A DNA stretch of 64,000 nt. Source: Methanosarcina sp. MTP4. Its GTDB lineage: Archaea; Halobacteriota; Methanosarcinia; Methanosarcinales; Methanosarcinaceae. A model generated the notes under the pieces. It was not told the DNA's origin, searched no databases, and saw only the letters and a program-made list of their open reading frames with translations. Position 1 is the stretch's first letter. Each line of letters starts with the position of its first letter. Below, piece after piece: positions 42,218-53,888 of this stretch. Position numbers and translations under genes: made by a program. Where the stretch lies: assembly GCF_000970045.1 (NCBI RefSeq), contig NZ_CP009505.1, positions 310,001-374,000 on the forward strand, given 5' to 3'.

Positions 42218-42290
42218 TAGTCCTGAGCGGATTCGAACCGCTGTCCCGGGCTCCAAAGGCCCGAAGGATTGACCACTACCCTACAGGACT
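42218..42290 (-). tRNA. tRNA-Gln (UUG)
   Basis: Folds as a full cloverleaf on the minus strand: acceptor AGTCCTG/CAGGACT, anticodon stem CGGGC/GCCCG with loop CTTTGGA (anticodon TTG) and T-loop GGTTCGAATCC. CCA is not encoded. It sits just before the tandem RNA array, reading in the opposite direction. Confidence 0.95.
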
Positions 42291-42499
42291 GCGCATGAAG
42301 GCTTTTAGCTATACCTTATTTATGGTACTTAATTTTTGTGCCACTAAAGGTATCTTTTGGAAGTCCGTGTTTCAGGTTGAAAATACGTGTCCTGTCCAAT
42401 TCCATACAGGTTTCGAAACTTTTTCAGGGAAAAACTTTTTTGTGCGATTAAAAATTTTCAATCAATTAATTTAAAATAATTTCCAATATAATTGTGTAA

Positions 42500-42655
42500 T
42501 TGGGACTGGGAGAGAATAAGGGAGAAATCAGACACAAAATGAAATGCCTGAGGACTCTGATCCTGCTTCGTATCATTATGCTTGGGGGAGCATATCTTCG
42601 GAGCGGCTGTATTGGGGGATATAGTGAAAAGGTGTGGCGTTCTCGGGCTTCTTCT
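42500..42655 (+). ncRNA. Tandem structured RNA, copy 1
   Basis: Predicted start about 30 nt after TTTAAAATAA (42470). P1 GCCTGAGGAC (42546-42555) pairs with GTTCTCGGGC (42639-42648). Hairpin P3 TATGCT/AGCATA with loop TGGGGG is at 42577-42594, and P4 CTGTAT/ATATAG with loop TGGGGG at 42607-42624. A CU-rich tail follows. P1, P3 and P4 differ from copy 2 by paired changes. Function unknown. Confidence 0.7.
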
Positions 42656-43085
42656 TCCTCTGCTTTTTTACTTCTCTTGCTATGCTTTTTTGTGTGATTG
42701 TGCTTTTTTATTGTGTGCCTTTTTTGCGTGATTGTGCGTTTTTATGTTTTTTTTACTGTGTTTTTATCTTTTTTTTGCTCCGTCTTCTTTTGAAAAGGGC
42801 TTTCTTTGGGGTATGTTTTTTGACATGTCGATAAAATTCAGTTTTCCCGGGGGATTAAGTAGAGGGAAAGTTTAGGTGGCTGTAGGAAACCTGAAAGCCG
42901 AAGAATCTACTGCTTCCCTGATTCCTCCAGTTCCGTAGCCCCTCTATATCCAGGATATCTGGTTGAAAATAACTCTCCTGTCCAATTCTGTGCAGGGCTT
43001 GAAAGTTTTTCAGGGGAGAAGTTTTTTTTGCGATTAAAAATTTTCAATGAATTAATTTAAAATAATTTCTGGTATAATTGTATGA

Positions 43086-43257
43086 TTGGGAAATGGTAAG
43101 TGAACCGGGGAAATTAACAGGGGAAATAAACCGGTTGAAAGAAATGCCCGGAAATCATCGATCCTTATCCGGATCCGTGCTCTAGGGAAGCACATTTTCG
43201 GAGGGACTGTAGTGGGGGCTACAGTAACAAGGATCCGAAATTTCCGGGCTTTTTCTT
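43086..43257 (+). ncRNA. Tandem structured RNA, copy 2
   Basis: TTTAAAATAA at 43056 lies 30 nt before the conserved TTGGGAAATGG. P1 GCCCGGAAAT (43146-43155) with ATTTCCGGGC (43240-43249) is perfect. P2 GATCCTT (43160-43166) pairs with AAGGATC (43229-43235). P3 GTGCT/AGCAC spans 43177-43193 and P4 CTGTAG/CTACAG 43207-43224 with loop TGGGGG. A run of five U follows P1. The clearest fold of the six. Confidence 0.75.
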
Positions 43258-43629
43258 ACGCTGCGAATCTTTTCTTTTTTTCGATGTTTTCTGCTCTGCT
43301 TTTTTGATTTTCTTTTGTTATCCTGCTTTTCCGGCCTGAATTATCTGGAAATGAGGCCATTTTCTGTTTCTCTTTACTTATGCTCTCCAGGGTGCTTGAG
43401 ATATTCGATTTCACGATATGATTTTACGTGCTTCAGAGGAGGGGTTTCTAATATAAGGAGATTCTTTTCCCCTTTCGAATCTGTTTTTATTGTACTGTAT
43501 TTCTGGTTGAAATTAACTCTCCTGTCCAATTCTATGCAGGGCTTGAAAGTTTTTCAGGGGAGAACTTTTTTTTGTGATTAAAAATTTTCAATGAATTAAT
43601 TTAAAATAATTTCTGGTATAATTGTATGA

Positions 43630-43801
43630 TTGGGAAATGGTACGTGAACCGGGGAAATTAACAGGGGAAATAAACCGGTTGAAAGAAATGCCTGGAAATC
43701 GCCGATTCTGGTCCGGATCCGTGCTTAAGGGAAGCACATTTTCGGAGGAATTGCAGTGGGGGCTGCAGTAACAAGGATCAGGAATTTCCGGGCTTCTTCT
43801 G
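43630..43801 (+). ncRNA. Tandem structured RNA, copy 3
   Basis: Begins TTGGGAAATGG. P1 GCCTGGAAAT (43690-43699) with ATTTCCGGGC (43784-43793). P2 GATTCT with AGGATC. P3 GTGCT/AGCAC at 43721-43737. P4 TTGCAG/CTGCAG at 43751-43768, where U-A of copy 2 is replaced by C-G, a compensatory change. Confidence 0.75.
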
Positions 43802-44074
43802 ACACTGCGAATCTTTCCTTTTTTTGATGTTTTTTTCTCTGCTTTTTTGATTTTCTTTTGTTATCCTGCTTTTCAGGTCTGAATTCTCTGGAAATGAGGT
43901 AATTTCTCGTTTGTTTCTGTTCGTTCTGTTTTTATTGCGTGGTGTTTCTGATTAAAAATAAGTTCCATGTCCAATTCTATGCAGGCTTCAAAAGTTTTTC
44001 AGGGGAGAAGTTTTTTGTACAATTGAAAATTTCCAACGAATTAATTTAAAATAATTTCCGGTATAATTGTATGA

Positions 44075-44244
44075 TTGGGAAATGGTAAGTGAAATGGGAA
44101 CACGAATAAGGGAAAAAACTTATTGAAATGAACACCCGGAAATTACTGGTCCTGCTTCGGACCCGTGCTTAAGGGGAGCACATCTTCGGAGCGCCTGTAG
44201 TCGAGGATACAGTAAAAAAGATCAGGGGTTTCCGGGTTTCTTAT
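44075..44244 (+). ncRNA. Tandem structured RNA, copy 4
   Basis: Begins TTGGGAAATGG. P1 ACCCGGAAAT (44134-44143) with GTTTCCGGGT (44228-44237): the closing G-C of other copies is A-U here. P3 GTGCT/AGCAC at 44165-44181, P4 CTGTA/TACAG at 44194-44212. P2 is weaker in this copy. Confidence 0.7.
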
Positions 44245-44582
44245 TGCTCTCATTTTCCTCCGTCTTTTTATTTTTTTCATTTTGTTTGCCTGTTTCCGGT
44301 TGTGTTTTTTCCTGCAGGTTGTTCGGCTCTTATTTTCTGCGTGTTTACGGTCTCTGCTTTTTTACGGTTTAATTTATCAACTTCTTTCATCCTTTGCCTT
44401 CGATCTTGTATCCTGTTTCTTTGAAAAGGAGGGGGTTTTCCGGAAGTTGTCTATCTGATTGAAAATATGCACCCTGTACAATTCTATGCAGGTTTAGAAA
44501 CTTTTTCAGGGATATTATTTTTTATGAGATTAAAAATTTTCAACGAATTAATTTAAAATAATTTAGATGATTATTGTATACT

Positions 44583-44745
44583 GGATATGGGAAGTGAAAA
44601 GAAAAAGACATGATGATTGTGGAAGAAATGCCTGGGGTCGCTTAATCCTGCTCCTTATTCCACTCTTGAGGGAGGGTGGATTTCCGGAGCTGCTGTATGA
44701 GGGGATAAAGCAGAAAGGATGAGGCGTTCTCGGGCATCTTCTTTC
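44583..44745 (+). ncRNA. Tandem structured RNA, copy 5 (diverged)
   Basis: P1 GCCTGGGG (44630-44637) with TTCTCGGGC (44727-44735), partly G-U. P2 ATCCT/AGGAT. P3 is CCACTC/GGGTGG (44660-44679), a different sequence with the stem kept. P4 is CTGCT/AGCAG (44690-44713). The start region has diverged (TATGGGAAG), so activity is less sure. Confidence 0.6.
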
Positions 44746-44959
44746 TATGTACATCTCTTCTTTTTTATTTTTTCTCTGCTTTCCTTTTCTGCTTTTACTT
44801 TTATGCTCCTGGTTTTCTGATTTACTTTTTTGAAAAATATATCCTTTTTTCGACATTAGTTTCTATGCAGAGTTCGAAATATTTGGAGCAAAGATATTTT
44901 TTGTGGCGTTAAAAGTTTTCAACGAATTAATTTAAAATAATTTATGAGATAATTCTCAA

Positions 44960-45117
44960 TTGGGAAATGGGAAGAAAATTGGGGAGAAACTGAGAAACAG
45001 AAAGAAATACTTGGGGGTGGTGGTCCTGTTCCGGATCCGTATGCTTGGGGGAGCATATATTCGAAACGGCTGTATTGGGGAATGCAGTAAAAGGATCTTC
45101 ATCCTCGGGCTTCTTCT
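44960..45117 (+). ncRNA. Tandem structured RNA, copy 6
   Basis: Begins TTGGGAAATGG. P1 CTTGGGGGTG (45010-45019) with CATCCTCGGG (45100-45109), sequence different from copy 2 but fully paired allowing G-U. P2 GGTCCT/AGGATC. P3 TATGCT/AGCATA at 45040-45057, P4 CTGTAT/ATGCAG at 45070-45087, loops TGGGGG and TGGGGA. CU-rich tail. Confidence 0.7.
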
Positions 45118-45191
45118 TGCACTGCTTTTTTACTTAATTTCTCAAGTTTTTATTATGACTCCCCTATTTTTTACTGGGTTCCTCTATTTTT

Positions 45192-45443
45192 TTACTGTGA
45201 TTCTTTTCTTTGCTTTTTCGTTTTCCTACTTTGGGCCATCACCTCGAAAGTGGTCATAAAGGGGCGCTTGATTGGAAGGGCAATATTTTCATTTTCAATA
45301 TAAAGTTCAACGGCTTCTTTCAGGTTTGTAACTGCTTCTTCGATTGTTTCTCCCCGGCTCGTTACGTCCAGTTCCAGGCAGAGCGACTCGTAAGATTCCT
45401 CTTTTTTGTTCACTATTGCAGTTAGTTTGAAAGTTTCTTTCAT
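45192..45443 (-). CDS. HicB-like antitoxin-type protein
   Basis: An 83-residue protein with the short HicB fold: LTAIVNKKEESYESLCLELDVTS, then GETIEEAVTNLKEAVELYIE. It lacks a DNA-binding helix-turn-helix at its C-terminus, which is basic instead. No HicA mRNA-interferase gene is adjacent on either side, so it is an orphan. It converges on the RNA array. Confidence 0.75.
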   Translation of the reverse strand: MKETFKLTAIVNKKEESYESLCLELDVTSRGETIEEAVTNLKEAVELYIENENIALPIKRPFMTTFEVMAQSRKTKKQRKESQ

Positions 45444-52691: not shown

Positions 52692-52868
52692 AAGGTAGTT
52701 GAATTGCTTCAACAAAATATTGAAGTCAACCACTCGCCAATAAATTGACGGGCATGTAATGTGCCCTGGTTGACCAGATCCCCGATTAGGAGCTTTGGAA
52801 AATCGGGAAACGATAGGAACGAATTTCATAGTTACCCTGAAATGCCGCCTCAGTTTCAGGCTCTAAGG
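52692..52868 (+). ncRNA. Candidate omega-RNA region upstream of iscB-like gene
   Basis: Three consecutive hairpins: GGGCA/TGCCC (52750-52766), CCCGATT/AATCGGG (52781-52807) and CCTGAAA/TTTCAGG (52836-52860). IscB nucleases use a structured omega-RNA made from DNA just upstream of the gene, so position and fold fit. No covariation evidence is available from one copy. It may be inactive, given the truncated protein. Confidence 0.45.
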
Positions 52869-53888
52869 ATGCCGGTTAAACAGTCCTGGGAGGTAGGGAC
52901 AGTGCTTGCATCATACAAACCGTTCCATATCAGATCGAGAGGAAGCCGGAAGACAAGGTACAGGCCAGCAAGGTTCAATAACCGGGGAAATTCAAGGAGA
53001 GAAGGAAGGTTAGCTCCTTCCATAAAAAGCAAACTCGAATCTCATTTCAGGGAAAAACGGTTTGTGGAATCCCTGCTTCTGGTAACGAAGTGGAAGGTCG
53101 AACTTGCTTCCTTTGATATCCACAAAATCAAAAACCCGGAAGTTTCCGGGACAGGGTATCAGGAAGGGGACCTAAAAGGTTTCTACAATGTCAAGGCTTA
53201 CGTTTTGCACAGGGACGGGTACACCTGCCAGCATTGCAGGGGAAAGTCAAAGGATTCCCGGCTACATTGCCATCACATCGTTTTCAGGTCAAAGCAGGGG
53301 TCAGATGCTCCGGAAAACCTGATTACGCTTTGTGAAACCTGTCACATTGCCCTTCATGCTGGGGAATTTGAGCTTTCAGGGAGAAGGTCAAACACGAAAC
53401 ACGCTACAGAAGTTGGCATTGTCAAGTCCCAAATCAAGAAATCCGATTGGAGCTTTGAGGAAGTGTTCGGATACGAAACAAAGTTCCGGCGAGAACAGGT
53501 TTTGGGACTCGAAAAAATGCATTATTTTGATGCGCTTGCTATCTGTTGTGGGGATAAACAGAAAGTAGAACCGGATGATACGGTCTACTTCAAAAAACAT
53601 GTTCCTGCGGGAGATTATCAGCAAAGAAAAGGGAAACGGTCTGAGAAGAAAATACCTACAGGAAAGCTGTTTGGACTCAGGAAATTCGATCTTGTAAAAA
53701 CAGAAAAGGGAATTGGTATTGTCCGAGGCAAACGATCAAGCGGGTATTTTTCGATCTCAGATCTCTTTGGAAACAAAATTTCAGATAGTGTCAATATTAA
53801 GAAAAATTCAAAACGATTGAGGGCAAGGACAAGCACATTAATTCAAAAAATGGAACTTGCAGAGTGTACGCATTCCTCCCCTGTCTAA
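52869..53888 (+). CDS. IscB-like HNH/RuvC nuclease, N-terminally truncated
   Basis: Start taken at ATG 52869 (339 residues), since the earlier open frame overlaps the hairpins. It has an Arg-rich bridge helix (SRKTRYRPARFNNRG), RuvC-II Glu (WKVELASFDIHKIKNPE), an HNH domain (YTCQHC, LHCHHIVFRSKQGSD, ENLITLCETCH) and RuvC-III (KMHYFDALAICCG). The PLMP segment and RuvC-I Asp (usually in IDPGS) expected in full IscB proteins are missing, and I find no remnant in other frames. HNH may still nick DNA, but the RuvC site cannot be complete. It is either a relic or an unusual short form. Confidence 0.75.
   Translation: MPVKQSWEVGTVLASYKPFHIRSRGSRKTRYRPARFNNRGNSRREGRLAPSIKSKLESHFREKRFVESLLLVTKWKVELASFDIHKIKNPEVSGTGYQEGDLKGFYNVKAYVLHRDGYTCQHCRGKSKDSRLHCHHIVFRSKQGSDAPENLITLCETCHIALHAGEFELSGRRSNTKHATEVGIVKSQIKKSDWSFEEVFGYETKFRREQVLGLEKMHYFDALAICCGDKQKVEPDDTVYFKKHVPAGDYQQRKGKRSEKKIPTGKLFGLRKFDLVKTEKGIGIVRGKRSSGYFSISDLFGNKISDSVNIKKNSKRLRARTSTLIQKMELAECTHSSPV

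Follow-up and report, generated by a model that had tools for sequence, protein, structure and literature searches.

Layout of the array

The window, by which we mean the whole 64,000-nucleotide stretch of the Methanosarcina sp. MTP4 genome that was analysed, contains an array of six RNA units and six upstream blocks at 42369-45118, adjoining a divergent tRNA-Gln(TTG) gene (Table 1). We define the block as positions -95 to -1, counted from an extended TATA element, AATTAATTTAAAATAATTT, which closes each block and precedes all six units (6/6). The RNA bodies, 117-121 nt per unit, are each followed 8-20 nt behind the body by a run of five to seven T residues (at 42664, 43275, 43819, 44265, 44761 and 45126), with 87-299 nt of spacer between an RNA body and the next block. 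The exact 20-mer CCTGTCCAATTCTATGCAGG occurs in unit 3 only and CTTGAAAGTTTTTCAGGGG in units 2 and 3 only, the other units carrying variants. As the first-pass annotation had stated, a block copy lies ahead of unit 1; there are six block matches, with none past unit 6, and these six array copies are the only block matches better than E 3e-4 in the 4.2-Mb single-contig genome.

Table 1. Features of the array and its neighbour, in window coordinates
Feature	Coordinates	Strand	Basis
tRNA-Gln(TTG), divergent neighbour of array	42218..42290	-	
Unit 1 upstream block	42369..42463	+	alignments; block model R2 match 42394-42484, E 6.2e-21
Unit 1 extended TATA element	42464..42482	+	whole-genome pattern search
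Unit 1 RNA body, predicted three-way junction	42539..42656	+	RNA model R1, E 6.4e-26
Unit 2 upstream block	42955..43049	+	alignments and R2 search
Unit 2 extended TATA element	43050..43068	+	whole-genome pattern search
Unit 2 RNA body	43139..43257	+	R1 model
Unit 3 upstream block, sole exact 20-mer copy	43499..43593	+	alignments and R2 search
Unit 3 extended TATA element	43594..43612	+	whole-genome pattern search
Unit 3 RNA body	43683..43801	+	R1 model
Unit 4 upstream block	43944..44038	+	alignments and R2 search
Unit 4 extended TATA element	44039..44057	+	whole-genome pattern search
Unit 4 RNA body	44127..44245	+	R1 model
Unit 5 upstream block	44451..44545	+	alignments and R2 search
Unit 5 extended TATA element	44546..44564	+	whole-genome pattern search
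Unit 5 RNA body	44623..44743	+	R1 model
Unit 6 upstream block, most diverged, without CCTG half	44830..44924	+	alignments and R2 search
Unit 6 extended TATA element	44925..44943	+	whole-genome pattern search
Unit 6 RNA body	45002..45118	+	R1 model

The same tRNA-Gln(TTG) was found near RNA copies at 8 of 30 related loci scanned (in genomes G006, G007, G008, G095, G080, G074, G093 and G079), which suggests that the tRNA-Gln-linked site is an old locus common to Methanosarcina and the genus of the window genome (hereafter the host genus). In G006, a truncated unit-1 block without an intact TATA element (contig C51; L036 6465-6548) adjoins the tRNA-Gln, about 1.9 kb from the array. Downstream of the array in the window, an 83-aa reading frame on the minus strand (45192-45443) is HicB-like by eye and has no Pfam match at 0.001, and a HEARO RNA (RF02033, 112 bits) is found at 52725-52950.

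The downstream RNA family

The predicted fold of the RNA body is a three-way junction with a long closing stem. In an alignment of 30 copies, 17 of 26 pairs show two-sided changes. The share of paired cells is 93.9%; shuffles give 87.2%, with 0/500 reaching the observed value, and slid versions give 35-57%, although the fold was obtained from the very alignment used to test it, which favours it over the slid versions. Rfam at gathering score gave no match over the array, and at 12 other loci it matched only tRNA and one HEARO. The RNA model R1 finds the family in 34 of 111 genomes of the taxonomic family, comprising 4/4 of the host genus and 30/30 of Methanosarcina, and with stricter filters it found no RNA in the other 12 genera. 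Copy number reaches 20 matches at E ≤ 0.01 in one genome. At one site in G095 (C32 39104-39377; L040 5105-5378), two RNA bodies lie in tandem, the second without a promoter match of its own, and one transcript may carry both copies.

Conservation and spacing of the block

To describe the block we used an ungapped alignment on the TATA element, with 65 units (20 from the host genus and 45 from Methanosarcina) retained from 68 sampled among 151 RNA matches (E ≤ 1e-6, 19 genomes); three were dropped for a weak anchor. Within the host genus (20 copies, 4 genomes), pairwise identity is 0.60-0.91 per 10-bp bin from -95 to -1, compared with 0.25-0.31 in the spacer from -205 to -136, where composition alone predicts 0.26-0.29; identity climbs weakly from -125 before the conserved stretch is reached. 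In the 45 Methanosarcina copies, identity stays at background as far as about -75, is a little higher between -75 and -56, and reaches 0.56-0.91 from -55 to +14. Both profiles bear out the earlier claim that the block is conserved apart from its drifted spacer, conservation in the block being higher than in the spacer.

The 28 block copies used for modelling, drawn from two genera, align over 93 bp without gaps. The predicted promoter spans about 85 bp and comprises, from 5' to 3', TTTGAAANTTTT, a T-run, AAACAATTTTT and the extended TATA TAATTAATTTAAAATA, with nearly invariant length between modules; in the window copies, G or C replaces the first T of TAATTAATTTAAAATA. TTTGAAANTTTT starts 52 bp before the TATA element, the T-run tATTTTTTG at about -30 and AAACAATTTTT at about -16. 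The weighted consensus of the 65 units reads AAATT.TAT from -67, TTGAAAttTTttA from -51, tATTTTTTG from -30, AAACAATTTTT from -16 and TAATTAATTTAAAATA from -1. Among the 49 units having one unique best position for TTTGAAANTTTT (16 of 65 were tied and left out), it lies exactly at -52 in 45, and in a control region any single position was reached by at most 3 of 30. Placement of AACAATTTTT is looser, with 33 of 46 at one position. Across the units compared, 69 to 100 nt separate the TATA element from the RNA body, while the spacing from block to TATA stays fixed, and the block is thus tied to the TATA element rather than to the RNA. Conserved, position-locked sequence lies upstream of the TATA element, as would be expected of an archaeal promoter with an upstream regulatory site.

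Genome-wide distribution of the block

The block model R2 was trained on the 28 copies, which come from G000 (the window's own genome), G006, G007, G008, G095, G080, G082 and G093. The 19 genomes searched contain 167 strong block matches (E ≤ 1e-4), and 137 of them lie ahead of an RNA on the same strand; the training copies had been picked for having an RNA and a TATA motif, and 8 of the 19 genomes are training genomes. This association, together with the lock at -52, agrees with the annotation's proposal that the block belongs to the following RNA. A block is followed by an RNA within 300 nt, with gaps mostly of 50-80 nt, in 60/72 cases in the first six genomes, where RNA matches up to E 1 were counted, and in 77/95 in the next 13, where the limit was 0.1. 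For the training genomes the figure is 62/69, both within 300 nt and within 100 nt; for the non-training genomes it is 75/98 within 300 nt and 68/98 within 100 nt. Conversely, an upstream block match is missing for 8 of 66 RNA matches (E ≤ 1e-4) in the first six genomes, several of these eight showing a TATA-like element by eye, and for 14 of 87 in the next 13. An insertion in G080 (see below) and the second body of the tandem pair in G095 account for some of these cases.

The promoters can also be recovered with a 16-bp core pattern, which exceeds the length of a usual TATA box. Allowing at most one mismatch, the six matches in the window's own genome are the six array promoters, and the reversed control gives none. 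The same search yields 11 matches in G074 (reversed control 3), 9 of which precede an RNA match, and 12 in G080 (reversed control 1), 10 of which do so; two of the core matches in G074 and one of those in G080 have no RNA match and no block match at their position.

Over the whole taxonomic family, R2 matches occur in 37 of 111 genomes, three of these outside the two genera. One-off matches in G024, G026 and G052 (E 3e-4 to 6e-3) were treated as chance, as was a weak match at 1389608 in G000 (E 3.9e-4) that has no such TATA element. G016, which belongs to neither genus, gave no block match at E ≤ 1e-4 among the looser-filter searches.

Two further observations concern individual genomes. G090 and G089 have 36 and 33 block matches against 8 and 4 RNA matches at E ≤ 0.01; the RNA copies there may have diverged heavily, or the excess may be a chance effect of A/T-rich genomes. 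At 412311-414693 on contig C1 of G080 (L042, L108), the block (412311) and the RNA (414572) are apparently two parts of a single unit, separated by an insertion that has the ends GAGCCTATCCCAAAA and TTTTGGGATAGGCTC and contains a reading frame that is transposase-like by eye.

Block copies without the RNA

The annotation had proposed looking for the block elsewhere without the RNA. Such copies were found in Methanosarcina, whereas the strong matches of the host genus all precede RNA copies, save the truncated one in G006; a regulon reading thus rests on Methanosarcina. Thirty of the 167 strong matches are lone, and all were read individually: four precede a response-regulator gene, nine small-protein genes and three other reading frames, four are broken or at contig ends, and ten have no clear gene.

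The response-regulator gene follows a lone block in G083, G081, G093 and G080, and the G081 copy is a receiver domain (Pfam PF00072). A 46-aa protein with two CxxC pairs is encoded behind lone blocks in G077, G078, G102 and G079, and its G102 copy has no Pfam match. Charged proteins of 40-49 aa are found in G103, G077, G078, G076 and G085, behind leaders of about 345-480 nt; these (L154, L155, L157, L163, L096) carry MT[HQ]H...GGKKK[GS]LLDTC. By Pfam, a lone block in G103 precedes a nitrite/sulfite reductase-family gene, and one in G077 lies 283 nt ahead of an alpha/beta hydrolase. A lone block in G080 precedes a 22-aa reading frame and then a weak RNA-like stretch. The four broken copies are truncated, interrupted by an insertion or close to the end of a contig. 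Seen by eye, some of the ten without a clear gene resemble decayed RNA copies, and behind some a reading frame lies at a distance of 300-430 nt. Protein genes of four kinds thus lie behind 14 of the 30 lone matches, in Methanosarcina, so the promoter is also present as a self-contained module where the RNA is absent.

In two genomes an RNA copy lies close to the response-regulator gene, each of the two having a block of its own: in G081 the blocks are at 2437199-2437284 (-) and 2437436-2437518 (+), and on contig C29 of G093 they are at 66487 and 67738, both on the plus strand. A HEARO lies alongside the G081 locus (L158 2905-3109). Relatives of the receiver protein (E ≤ 1e-30) occur in 34 of 111 genomes, namely four of the host genus, 29 of 30 Methanosarcina and G005, roughly the same clade as the RNA, and in some Methanosarcina extra close paralogues carry the block promoter. 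We do not claim the response regulator as the protein that binds the block: its distribution follows the species tree, the sole copy tested has just a receiver domain by Pfam, and only some paralogues carry the promoter.

A candidate composite promoter

Archaeal promoters are recognised by TBP and TFB at the TATA/BRE core, with activators binding farther upstream. We consider it probable, on the evidence of conservation and spacing, that each RNA unit has its own composite archaeal promoter, bound by a putative factor, and that the block supplies the distal and middle portions of this promoter; the block looks like a DNA control sequence rather than RNA. Of the alternatives offered by the annotation, an upstream activator site belonging to the following RNA fits best, activation itself being the inferred part. 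A putative sequence-specific DNA-binding factor would bind the upstream modules and aid assembly of the initiation complex. Since these sites lie upstream of the TBP/TFB site, the factor would most likely be an activator, acting as a single protein or as cooperating proteins on the TTGAAA, T-run and ACAATTTTT modules, although activation, repression and plain promoter strength are indistinguishable from sequence. Each array unit would be its own transcription unit, transcribed from a predicted site some 33-38 bp downstream of where the TATA element begins to a predicted end at the T-run just past the RNA, and the RNA copies and a few protein genes would form one regulon.

A wider reading can be put forward tentatively. 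The rigid composite of about 85 bp could define a promoter class of its own in Methanosarcina and the host genus, its sister, read by a putative factor or a special initiation complex. It would drive the multi-copy RNA, the response-regulator gene and several genes for small proteins as a single regulon, on which the response regulator might itself exert feedback. A promoter specific for a TBP paralogue was considered and set aside, as extra TBP genes do not seem to be required: the window's own genome has six promoters yet two TBP-domain matches, which probably represent two repeats of one TBP. G006, G008, G081, G083 and G093 likewise have two matches each.

The promoter organisation suggests that the array units are expressed individually and that the scattered RNA copies are under common control. 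Judged from sequence, the shared promoter may mark genes that are switched on together by the putative factor. To our knowledge, few archaeal regulons are built around small RNAs. With the motif as a sharply defined bait, and with a known set of genes to follow, the factor could be sought in a genus that has genetic tools; so strong and long a core element also prompts the question whether a non-standard initiation complex is used.

Alternative readings of the block

The annotation had also pointed out that CTCCTG and a downstream arm could pair to give a hairpin followed by a U-run. The 8-bp pairing of CTCTCCTG with CAGGGGAG is complete in units 2 and 3 only, and in Methanosarcina the arm positions form on average 2.6 of 8 pairs. 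Within the host genus (18 distinct copies), 71.5% of arm cells pair against 64.3% in shuffles (0/500), and the covariation score exceeds all 500 shuffles and all slid versions, a signal that the close relatedness of these copies tends to inflate. On two of the five measures, 29 and 77 of 500 shuffles do at least as well, the version slid by +3 has 11 cells with two-sided changes versus 10 for the true arms, and the inner CCTG/CAGG pairing shows no two-sided change. What stands of the hairpin is thus this weak covariation in the host genus; as a general feature of the block, a conserved hairpin or terminator is not supported, with 0 pairs found by RNAalifold in the 28 aligned blocks from two genera and Methanosarcina copies lacking the arms.

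The arms may have another role, and it is conceivable, if doubtful, that in the host genus they are an added operator, an inverted DNA repeat with arms about 30 bp apart, placed atop the shared promoter and compatible with the composite promoter reading. Their covariation and the extension of the conserved region to -95, compared with about -75 in Methanosarcina, would fit such an operator, but the incomplete pairing, the shuffle and slide results above, the close relatedness of the copies and the absence of the arms from unit 6 and some orthologues speak against it.

The main rival to a specifically bound promoter is that the block is architectural DNA, in the form of intrinsically bent A/T tracts or a site for chromatin proteins (histones or MC1, for example), and strengthens the promoter with no dedicated regulator involved. 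In its favour, all four modules common to the copies are A/T tracts, and their rigid spacing would suit bending or wrapping. However, the G of TTGAAA and the C of ACAATTTTT are conserved (55-80% each in the consensus), the 16-bp core at one mismatch or fewer is nearly confined to these promoters, and bending alone would accept other tracts. We regard the architectural reading as unlikely.

That the block encodes a second small RNA, as the annotation had suggested, or a long leader of the main RNA is very improbable. Paralogues do conserve the block, and the host-genus pairing signal would be in keeping with an RNA, but the block lies upstream of a strongly conserved TATA element at a fixed spacing while the distance to the RNA body varies, there is no consensus fold, and all six window blocks fold like shuffles (6/6; z -1.39 to 1.56). 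Least likely of all is the annotation's terminator of the preceding unit, a hairpin plus U-run: despite the full pairing in units 2 and 3, the weak covariation and the T-run behind the arms, neither a conserved helix before the T-run nor a location at the 3' end of units was found, the block instead preceding unit 1 and dispersed single copies and being absent after unit 6, with each RNA owning a T-run and spacer separating it from the next block.

Comparison with known systems

We recognised no paper on this element or RNA family in a literature search whose coverage did not extend to Jager et al. 2009 and Prasse et al. 2017, and the element or family may be partly in print already. The available parts of PMC5867862, PMC11549558 and PMC5112694 make no mention of the block or promoter element. 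As cited in the available part of PMC5867862, M. mazei sRNA154 and the sRNAs of Jager et al. 2009 are conserved Methanosarcina intergenic sRNAs, and some members of the RNA family may be in the Jager et al. 2009 list.

The closest described RNAs are sRNA162 and sRNA171 of M. mazei. According to the accessible portion of PMC3510493, these are intergenic, 191 nt long and were duplicated together with their promoters; sRNA162 has three stem-loops and a 39-nt single-stranded linker, and is single-copy in M. acetivorans and M. barkeri. The array RNA resembles the pair, as far as that portion describes them, in its similar length, its intergenic location in Methanosarcina and its promoter-linked duplication. 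By the same partial description it is set apart from sRNA162, since it is predicted to form a three-way junction and is multi-copy (10 matches at E ≤ 1e-4 in G074).

As a promoter, the element is most readily compared with archaeal TATA/BRE promoters that have upstream activator sites, with which it shares a TATA-like core and conserved upstream sites. It differs from TATA/BRE promoters in that about 85 bp are conserved, with near-fixed spacing over two genera, and mainly in front of one RNA family.
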